A stretch of DNA of 34,528 nt from Opitutaceae bacterium. GTDB lineage: Bacteria; Verrucomicrobiota; Verrucomicrobiia; Opitutales; Opitutaceae. A program made the position numbers and the translations under genes. The stretch lies in assembly GCA_002694885.1 (NCBI GenBank), contig NZNM01000019.1, positions 1 to 34,528 on the forward strand, given 5' to 3'. The first letter of the stretch is position 1; each line of letters opens with the position of its first letter. Below the pieces are notes generated by a model. That model saw only the letters and a program-made list of their open reading frames with translations, was not told the origin of the DNA and made no database searches. Below are positions 29,067 to 32,191 of this stretch, in pieces.

Positions 29067-30218
29067 TTGGTCGATAGCGACATACTAGTCACCTGCCCTA
29101 AAGCGTGCGCCGGCTACTTAAGCGAGGAGCTGGAGGAGTTGGGTTACCTAGTGACTCGGGTAGCGCCTGCTGGGGTGTTCACAAAGGGATCGCTACGCGA
29201 TTGCATGCGCCTGAATTTGCTCTTGCGAACGGGGCTTAGGGTGCTCTGGCAGATCGCGGATTTCAACGCTAGGGATGGGCAGCAGCTGTATAATAAGGCG
29301 GTCAAGATTCCTTGGGAGTCCTATATTCCGGCCGATGGCTACGTCTCTATCGGTTCCTCGGTAAGAAACGATACCATTCGGAACACGAAGTTCGCTGGAT
29401 TGCGTTTGAAAGACGCCATGGTCGATCGAATCAGAGATCGGAGAGGGAAACGTCCGGATACGGGAAACGATTCCGATAAGGCTAAGCTTTTCCTCTATTG
29501 GAGGGAGGAAGAGGTTAACATTTATTTGGATACGTCGGGAGTTCCGCTCAGCAATCGGGGCTATCGTGTTAGTCCTGGCAAGGCTCCGATGCGGGAGAAT
29601 CTAGCCGCTTCTGTGTTAAAGGCGACTCACTGGCACCCGGGTATCCCGCTCGTTAACCCTATGTGCGGGAGCGGCACCTTGGCCATTGAGGCGGCTCTCC
29701 AGGCATCCGGAAGGCCAGCAGGGCAATTGCGGGAAAATTTCGGATTCATGCACCTGGAAGGCTATCGCCCAGAGGAATTCGAGGCTGTAAAGAGCGGGTT
29801 GGATAAAGGAAGACCGGTTAAAGAATCGGCTCCCATTGTCGCGACCGATCGAGATCCAGAGGCGATCGAAGCGGCTCGTCGAAACGCTGAGCTCGCTGGT
29901 GTGGCTGATTCGATCCTGTTTTCCGTTTGCGACTTTCGCGAAACCGAGATGCCCGAGACCCCAGGCGTGGTTATTCTGAATCCAGAATATGGCGACAGAA
30001 TGGGTGACGAGAAAAAGCTGCTCCCCGTTTATCAAGCGATAGGGGACTTTTTTAAAAAGGACTGTTCCGGCTATTGGGGCTACGTTTTCACGGGTAACCG
30101 TTCTCTGGGGAAGCGCGTCGGTTTAAAGACTTCGAGGAAGATCGAGTTCTACAATGGCCCCATCGAGTGCAGGCTATTTGAGTACGAGCTCTATGCGGGA
30201 TCGCGGAATCCGAAGTAG
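29067..30218 (+). CDS. THUMP-domain class I SAM-dependent RNA methyltransferase (RlmL N-terminal/YpsC type)
   Basis: Probable 23S rRNA guanine-N2 methyltransferase, a 383-residue protein. The N-terminal region (about 1-165) carries ferredoxin-like and THUMP parts, with SDILVTCPKACAGYLSEELE and SSVRNDTIRNTKFAGLRLKDA. The Rossmann methyltransferase domain (about 180-383) has motif I PMCGSGTLAIEAAL near 198-211 and an acidic strand end ATDRDPEAIEAARRNA. Motif IV reads NPEYG at 305-309, where most relatives have NPPYG. The TTG start at 29067 has GGCGGAA upstream and gives the family N-terminus; no in-frame ATG fits. It lacks the second methyltransferase domain of E. coli RlmL. Confidence 0.85.
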   Translation: MVDSDILVTCPKACAGYLSEELEELGYLVTRVAPAGVFTKGSLRDCMRLNLLLRTGLRVLWQIADFNARDGQQLYNKAVKIPWESYIPADGYVSIGSSVRNDTIRNTKFAGLRLKDAMVDRIRDRRGKRPDTGNDSDKAKLFLYWREEEVNIYLDTSGVPLSNRGYRVSPGKAPMRENLAASVLKATHWHPGIPLVNPMCGSGTLAIEAALQASGRPAGQLRENFGFMHLEGYRPEEFEAVKSGLDKGRPVKESAPIVATDRDPEAIEAARRNAELAGVADSILFSVCDFRETEMPETPGVVILNPEYGDRMGDEKKLLPVYQAIGDFFKKDCSGYWGYVFTGNRSLGKRVGLKTSRKIEFYNGPIECRLFEYELYAGSRNPK

Positions 30219-30270: not shown

Positions 30271-30807
30271 ATGGGTACTAATGCTACGAGTTTTTCCTGC
30301 CTTTCGCCTCAGTGTCGAGTCGAGGAAAGTCCGATTCACGGTAGCGGGTTATTTGCTAAAAACGATATCAGTAGAGATGACATTGTTGCTGTTAAGGGAG
30401 GATATATTTTTGACAGCAAGCAGTGGGCCGAGAAAGAGCGGCTGTTAGGTTCAGCCGAGATTCAAATAGCCAAGGATCTCTTTATCGCTCCTTCGTGCAT
30501 GGAGGAGAGAGAAGAATCGACGCTGTACTCAAATCATTCCTGCGACCCCAACATAGGGATACAGGGGCAGATCGTATTTGTGGCAATGAGAGATATTTCC
30601 ATGGGCGAAGAGTTGACTCACGATTGGGCTACAACAGACAACGGTGCCTAGTCGATGGATTGTCGCTGCGGCTCTTCCAAATGTCGGAAAACTGTTACGG
30701 GCCAAGATTGGAGGCTCGCGGAATTGCAGAATCGCTATGCAGGGTGGTTCGCTTGGCATATTCAGCGGGAGATTGATCTCCGGTGTCTCCAAGAACCTGA
30801 TGAGTAG
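30271..30807 (+). pseudogene. SET-domain protein interrupted by an in-frame TAG before the post-SET motif
   Basis: SET domains are usually protein lysine methyltransferases. The intact part (30271-30651, 126 residues) has the SET start VEESPIHGSGLFAKNDIS and the core NHSCDPNIG, followed by EELTHDW. A TAG at 30649-30651 stops translation. The same frame then continues, with no other break, as SMDCRCGSSKCRKTVTGQDW and onward to a TAG at 30805-30807. This second part contains the CxCx4C zinc-binding post-SET motif and the W that follow the SET core in intact relatives. Tyr normally precedes this region in relatives, so a TAC or TAT to TAG change is the simple explanation. The truncated protein lacks the post-SET cysteines and would probably be impaired. 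Confidence 0.75.
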
Positions 30808-30821
30808 GGCTTTTTTCCGCT

Positions 30822-30866
30822 GGAAAATTGTTGAAAGGGCTTTAAGACTGCGCCCTACAATTTTCC
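30822..30866 (+). promoter_or_regulatory. Long hairpin in the leader of metY
   Basis: A 10-bp arm GGAAAATTGT (30822-30831) pairs with ACAATTTTCC (30857-30866). Inside it AGGGC (30836-30840) pairs with GCCCT (30852-30856), with a 4-base bulge on the 5' side and an 11-base loop. It lies 42 bases before the metY start and 15 bases after the last SET stop. No run of T follows it. It could be a metY leader element or an RNA end structure of the SET gene. It does not resemble the SAM riboswitches I know well enough to name. Confidence 0.4.
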
Positions 30867-30907: not shown

Positions 30908-32191
30908 ATGAAACTCGAAACGAAATGCCTCCACGCCGGTCAAGCGCCGGATCCGACTACTAACTCTAGAGCGGTTCCCGTTTACCGTACGTCTTCCTAC
31001 GTGTTCAACGATACTGAGCATGCAGCTAACCTATTCGCGCTTAAAGAATTGGGTAACATCTACTCTCGGATCATGAATCCGACCCAGGACGTTCTGGAGC
31101 AACGGGTAGCCCAACTAGAAGGCGGAGCAGCGGCCCTAGCGTTGTCCTCAGGTACGAGCGCCATTTTCTATTCAATTATCAATGTTGCCAAGGCTGGCGA
31201 CAACATTGTCTCGGCCAATAATTTATACGGCGGTACGTATACGCAATTCAATGACATCCTGCCTGACTTGGGTATCACGGTTAAGTTTGTAGATCCGAAT
31301 GATCCTGCGAATTTCGCTGAAGCGATAGACGAGAATACCAAAGCTCTCTTTTGCGAGACGGTCAGCAATCCAGGAGTGGATATTGCGGATCTGGAAGCGA
31401 TCGCCAATATCGCCCACGACAACGGCTTGCCCCTGATTGTGGATTCCACGTTTTCCACGCCTTATCTAACGCGCCCAATCGAGTTTGGGGCCGATATCGT
31501 AGTGCACTCCTTGACCAAATGGTTTGGCGGCCACGGTACAGGTATAGGTGGTGTCGTCGTCGATTCCGGCAAGTTCAATTGGGCCAATGGGAAATTCCCG
31601 CTCTATGACGAGCCGGATTCATCTTATCACGGCCTGCGTTGGGGCCACGATTTGCCTGAGCCATTGGCGCCTCTAGCTTTCATCTTAAGAATGCGTACTG
31701 TGCCCTTGCGAAATTTGGGTGCCTGCTTGGCCCCGGATAACGCCTGGATATTCCTGCAAGGGATAGAAACGCTGCCGTTGCGTATGGAACGCCACTGCTC
31801 GAATGCCAAGACCGTTGCCGAACATCTCGATGGCAAGGCCGGGGTCGAATGGGTTCGGTATCCAGGGCTCAACGACGAGAAGAGCGGAGCTTTGGCTGAC
31901 AAGTATCTCGATGGCAAGGGTGGCTCCATGGTGATATTCGGAATCAAAGGTGGAGCCGATGCGGGGTCCAAGTTTATTGATTCCCTAGAGCTTTTTAGCC
32001 ATTTAGCCAATGTAGGTGACGCTAAGAGTTTGGCTATTCATCCGGCGACCACTACGCACAGCCAGCTATCCGAAGAAGCCCAAAGCGCTGGAGGTATTAC
32101 TCCTGAACTCGTTCGTTTGTCGGTGGGTATCGAACATATTGACGATATCCTAGCCGATATCGATCAAGCTCTCGAGAAGGCGCTGGCATAG
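30908..32191 (+). CDS. metY: O-acetylhomoserine aminocarboxypropyltransferase (sulfhydrylase)
   Basis: PLP enzyme of the Cys/Met metabolism family that makes homocysteine from O-acetylhomoserine and sulfide. The 427-residue protein begins LETKCLHAGQAPDPTTNSRA and has YSRIMNPTQDVLEQRVAQLEGG, typical of the family. The PLP lysine is Lys204 in HSLTKWFGGHGTGIGG. The long section around 240-290 (LAFILRMRTVPLRNLGACLAP) is the insertion that marks MetY against the shorter cystathionine enzymes. It ends VRLSVGIEHIDDILADIDQAL. With cysK 9 kb upstream, the window holds both sulfide-fixing routes. A leader hairpin lies upstream. No metX is adjacent. Confidence 0.92.
   Translation: MKLETKCLHAGQAPDPTTNSRAVPVYRTSSYVFNDTEHAANLFALKELGNIYSRIMNPTQDVLEQRVAQLEGGAAALALSSGTSAIFYSIINVAKAGDNIVSANNLYGGTYTQFNDILPDLGITVKFVDPNDPANFAEAIDENTKALFCETVSNPGVDIADLEAIANIAHDNGLPLIVDSTFSTPYLTRPIEFGADIVVHSLTKWFGGHGTGIGGVVVDSGKFNWANGKFPLYDEPDSSYHGLRWGHDLPEPLAPLAFILRMRTVPLRNLGACLAPDNAWIFLQGIETLPLRMERHCSNAKTVAEHLDGKAGVEWVRYPGLNDEKSGALADKYLDGKGGSMVIFGIKGGADAGSKFIDSLELFSHLANVGDAKSLAIHPATTTHSQLSEEAQSAGGITPELVRLSVGIEHIDDILADIDQALEKALA

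Follow-up and report, generated by a model that had tools for sequence, protein, structure and literature searches.

A SET-domain gene of an Opitutaceae bacterium is interrupted by an in-frame TAG, past which a post-SET tail is encoded in the same frame. The locus raises the question of whether the gene has been inactivated, is recorded wrongly in the assembly or still yields a functional product. The gene is located in the window, the whole stretch of 34,528 nucleotides that was analysed, together with the following features, all on the + strand:

29067–30218, +, RlmL-like THUMP methyltransferase gene (rlmL), upstream neighbour (Pfam RlmL_1st, THUMP and UPF0020).
30271–30648, +, SET domain part, 126 codons (ORF list, Pfam PF00856, alignment A1), with the motifs NHSCDPN and ELTHDW.
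30649–30651, +, in-frame TAG; 14 of 18 orthologues encode Tyr here (TAC or TAT), and the other four have GAC, AGC, TCG or TCA.
30652–30804, +, post-SET tail, the 51-codon continuation, with CxCx4C, TGxDW and a C-terminal helix (helices and strands placed from the modelled read-through protein).
30655–30657, +, in-frame ATG, two codons past the TAG; several intact orthologues likewise have Met at this position.
30805–30807, +, TAG closing the extended frame, the presumed original stop (from the sequence).
30908–32191, +, gene of a PLP-dependent enzyme of Cys/Met metabolism (metY here), downstream neighbour (Pfam PF01053).

An inverted repeat was also seen right after the extended frame, at window positions 30822–30866 (arms at about 30822–30840 and 30852–30866, delimited by eye); it is possibly a candidate transcription terminator.

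The ORF opened by ATG 30271 (30271–30651) encodes the SET domain and ends at the in-frame TAG 30649–30651, past which the frame continues for 51 more codons to the TAG 30805–30807; the sequence-only reading had described this arrangement correctly. The SET part was assigned to Pfam PF00856 (residues 24–118) at 46.1 bits, the cut-off being 22.4; no NCBIfam match above a cut-off was obtained, and the tail alone reached no Pfam or NCBIfam family. The post-SET motif CxCx4C is in the same frame as the SET domain, but is located after the TAG. Its cysteines C131, C133 and C138, as well as W147, do not vary among the 17 aligned sequences, the window included, or among the 21 sequences of a wider set, which bears out the earlier identification of a post-SET motif and a conserved W behind the stop. 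By itself, the tail matched that of L034, an uninterrupted orthologue, at 76% over 42 residues (tblastn E 1.9e-21). Since the tail alone matches the tails of uninterrupted orthologues, the resemblance is far beyond chance, and the two sides of the TAG fit one SET protein, as had been proposed.

In SET enzymes, the post-SET tail completes a zinc site and closes the active site; in homologues, the three tail cysteines bind zinc together with the cysteine of NHSC. The stop removes residues 127–178, these three cysteines included. Because of this role of the tail, the truncated product of 126 residues is probably inactive or unstable, judging by analogy with these enzymes. The read-through protein, modelled with Tyr at the TAG, showed a mean pLDDT of 91.3 and a pTM of 0.84, and the tail (residues 131–170, block pLDDT 94–96) forms a confident part of the fold. 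Comparison of the model with structures matched the SET domains of NSD1, MLL1 and ASH1L (best Foldseek E 3.2e-10). The best sequence match was the KMT2A/MLL1 SET domain with post-SET (PDB 7u5v; profile E 1.8e-22), which spans the SET domain and the post-SET cysteines; KMT2A/MLL1 contains Y-D-Y, whereas H-D-W is found in the clade of the window gene, and the window copy is interrupted.

Eighteen orthologues were aligned, namely, 14 from a genome-contig scan (L034–L047) and 4 from a search of class genomes (L109–L112). These are intact bacterial single-domain SET and post-SET proteins, 49–66% identical over their length in alignment A1 and carrying the same motifs. In contrast to the window gene, all 18 are uninterrupted, including the tail, and contain a sense codon at the stop position (Tyr in 14); the TAG is common to none of them. 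Since this position is a sense codon in 18 of 18, the window gene has a frame interrupted relative to intact orthologues, which is a criterion for a pseudogene. The TAC or TAT codon that the sequence-only reading had proposed to look for in relatives was thus found, but it cannot separate an error from a real mutation, because the orthologues belong to different species with at most 66% identity.

The genome-contig scan gave 45 loci, of which 20 were read at the TAG position and 25 were not; all 20 are open through it. Besides the 14 orthologues, these include the more distant L048–L052 and the fragment L055, cut by a contig end, which is open with Tyr at the TAG position; these six were left out of the orthologue set. 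At E <= 1e-20, the search of 384 class genomes gave six matches in addition to that of the window, all free of internal stops; L113 and L114 were omitted from the alignment, their best matches being partial. When the read-through protein was compared with 57 close relatives, only matches at 28–44% identity were obtained, which are taken to be paralogues; the gene therefore appears scattered in distribution. In viral contigs, eight distant relatives (31–35% identity) and no close copy were found.

The locus was located in congeners by means of rlmL, orthologues of which are present in 10 of 10 other genomes of the genus. The closest congener by this gene is G008 (85%), and its rlmL–metY interval contains only a remnant of the tail (L116, G008:C133, 2641–2907), with 45% identity over 42 residues, no cysteine kept and an in-frame TAG of its own in a different place from that of the window; most of the SET part is absent. 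The DNA alignment of the remnant extends into the downstream gene metY. A DNA search of the genus detected the remnant at E 1.4e-4; apart from the window, no other match had an E below 0.001. When the 1,500 bases following rlmL at nine congener loci were searched with a profile, only G008 was found at E < 0.01; the tenth locus, L125, ends inside rlmL and lay outside this search. Judging from these sequences, the gene was probably present in the ancestor of the window genome, G000, and G008, and decayed in the latter. It is dispensable in G008, where nothing more than this degraded piece of the tail, itself interrupted by a stop, is left. This decay is the strongest argument for tolerated loss, and because it occurred in the closest congener, loss is credible in the window strain as well.

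The window gene contains one stop and no frameshift. Its ratio of tail to SET-part divergence in pairwise comparisons is 1.27, and the other 18 span 1.16–1.33. On a fixed topology, the window branch accounts for 3.9% of the tail tree versus 6.4% of the upstream tree. Compared with its nearest relative L034, the window branch is 1.2 times as long in the upstream part (0.339 versus 0.274) and 3.2 times as long in the tail (0.281 versus 0.087; 41 residues, a weak measure). The 3.2-fold tail branch could reflect some relaxation and a stop older than ‘very recent’, as far as the sequences indicate. Of the 39 differences between the tails of the window and L034, 25 affect third codon positions, and the two tails agree at 32 of 41 residues. 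In neutral decay simulated without selection and without indels, the probability of no further stop was 0.79 at 1% divergence, 0.32 at 5% and 0.04 at 15%; because of this fall, the period without constraint should be short. Clear decay was seen in the G008 copy alone, and the window gene overall has no excess divergence. As the tail is without clear decay, the stop looks recent; a preserved tail is equally expected where the tail is still translated.

Accordingly, the preferred reading, to which we assign a probability of about 0.7, is that of an ordinary bacterial SET gene very recently inactivated by a single nonsense substitution, i.e., an incipient pseudogene of the age of a strain or population. 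The substitution would have hit a codon that is usually Tyr; RF1 would read the TAG 30649–30651 and translation would end there, leaving a product of 126 residues without the post-SET tail. We infer loss of function, recent age and dispensability in the window strain. Three options had been offered from the letters alone: very recent mutation is favoured by the single stop, the lack of frameshifts and of clear tail relaxation, and the decay in G008; sequencing error is retained as the main rival, and tolerated readthrough gained no positive support.

Stop usage was determined in a 303-kb sample for 213 ORFs of at least 150 aa, called mechanically, greedily and without overlap, some of which are spurious: TAG is the commonest stop (101), followed by TAA (57) and TGA (55). 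The median run of the frame past the stop is 19 codons for TAG, 19 for TAA and 18 for TGA; the run past TAG equals that past the other stops, which argues against general readthrough. RF1 is encoded in the genome (one prfA match above the cut-off), and a second, weaker prfA match is probably RF2. The amber suppressor tRNA suggested by the sequence-only reading as a check was not seen: the 38 tRNAs found, an incomplete list (e.g., without Ile-GAT), include none with a CTA anticodon. Both Ile-GAT and Ala-TGC are missing from the 38 tRNAs found in G000; the draft genome therefore probably lacks its rRNA operon region.

As controls in G000, internal stops were absent from 11 of 11 sulfatases among the matches listed (95 matched) and from 4 of 4 glutaredoxins among the matches listed. 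Exceptions among the matches listed were one sulfatase of G007 (TGA and TAG) and one glutaredoxin of G010 (TAG and TAA). Recoding of TAG in the genus was rejected on the basis of stop usage, of RF1 and of the near absence of internal stops in sulfatases and glutaredoxins among the matches listed. Amber recoding is marked by TAG being rare as a stop and by a stop position kept in relatives; here, 101 of 213 ORFs end in TAG, and the stop is kept in 0 of 18 orthologues. In the congener G007, an rlmL orthologue with an in-frame TAG at the position of Q323 was found (L122, G007:C1). It was considered as a second tolerated amber and dropped, metY in the same locus being split over three frames; the breaks in both genes are read as poor assembly or local decay.

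The main rival, according to which the species has an intact gene and the TAG is an error of sequencing or of the consensus, or a variant of a minority strain that entered the draft assembly, is possible, though doubtful. It draws on the draft state of the genome (165 contigs), on the single base that separates TAG from the Tyr codons of the orthologues, on the lack of decay elsewhere in the gene and on the conserved genes broken in the G007 assembly (the TAG in rlmL and metY over three frames); however, no internal stop was detected in the control sulfatases (11 of 11, 95 matched) and glutaredoxins (4 of 4) of G000 among the matches listed, and the decay of the same gene in G008 makes real loss credible. 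Functional readthrough or regulated suppression, with some ribosomes inserting an amino acid at the TAG and the full-length protein being made, is very improbable. Although the frame and every invariant residue of the tail are intact, and bacterial precedent for the readthrough of in-frame stops is argued from dN/dS in a survey (PMC7918605), the stop occurs in none of the 18 orthologues, no CTA anticodon is present in the incomplete list of 38 tRNAs, the frame runs about as far past TAG (median 19 codons) as past TAA (19) or TGA (18), and RF1 is encoded. According to PMC5373646, ribosomes of E. coli occupy UAG to an extent similar to UAA, and bacterial readthrough is characterised there as rare in comparison with frameshifting. 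PMC7918605 describes in-frame stops as widespread in bacterial genes, many being argued not to be pseudogenes, and as persisting for short times; a young pseudogene and a tolerated polymorphism would both agree with this. The interrupted genes described there and the window gene have in common one in-frame stop, unshared by other species and short-lived in that survey, in a conserved frame that is otherwise intact; the orthologous stops studied there were, in contrast, common to at least two genomes, and the window stop is found in 0 of 18 orthologues. A literature search on bacterial pseudogenes with readthrough, as one combined topic, gave no results.

A quite improbable variant is that the amber codon damps expression: occasional readthrough, or a new start at ATG 30655, would supply a little tail, so that the gene would be functional at a low dose. 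The same ATG, two codons past the TAG, is the sole feature permitting a reinitiated tail peptide of 50 residues, which would complement the 126-residue SET fragment as a split protein. This is hardly credible: Met is already present in the intact orthologues L034, L036 and L047 and so did not arise for a restart, no clear Shine–Dalgarno sequence was recognised by eye just upstream of ATG 30655, and no second genome with the same arrangement was found. Least probable of all is that the tail is dispensable and the 126 residues form a short but functional SET protein; the SET part alone does exceed the Pfam cut-off, but all 21 sequences compared keep Cys131, Cys133, Cys138 and Trp147, and the tail is confident in the modelled fold (block pLDDT 94–96, residues 131–170).

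Apart from the stop, the window gene is distinguished by the motif ELTHDW (30613–30630), which does not match ELxFDY, given as the canonical catalytic SET motif in PMC3980110. ELTHDW was found in 19 loci besides the window (L034–L047, L055 and L109–L112), His and Trp thus replacing in this clade the Phe and the active-site Tyr of ELxFDY. The motif scan covered 89 loci, 19 of them without a motif match; in the other 51 loci with a recognisable motif, Tyr occupies this position in 49, Cys in L059 and Phe in L156. Recruitment was biased to the motif, the contig scan being partly seeded with HDWATTDN and the viral scan with EELTHDW, and other loci were found too. Judging from the motif, the clade may have an altered chemistry or may have lost methyltransferase activity. 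The string ELTHDW was not found among the literature matches listed, and a search on Verrucomicrobia bacterial SET proteins with horizontal transfer, as a combined topic, gave no papers.

The finding itself is ordinary: one more gene caught near the moment of its inactivation, a case made clearer by G008, where little of this gene is left. It also warns against concluding readthrough from a frame that stays intact past a stop; should readthrough be real, the TAG would act as a naturally occurring switch for low-dose expression of a bacterial SET protein. The ELTHDW clade is the more unusual observation and may deserve more attention than the stop, and it could offer a way to test whether SET enzymes are able to function when the canonical Tyr of the active site is missing.
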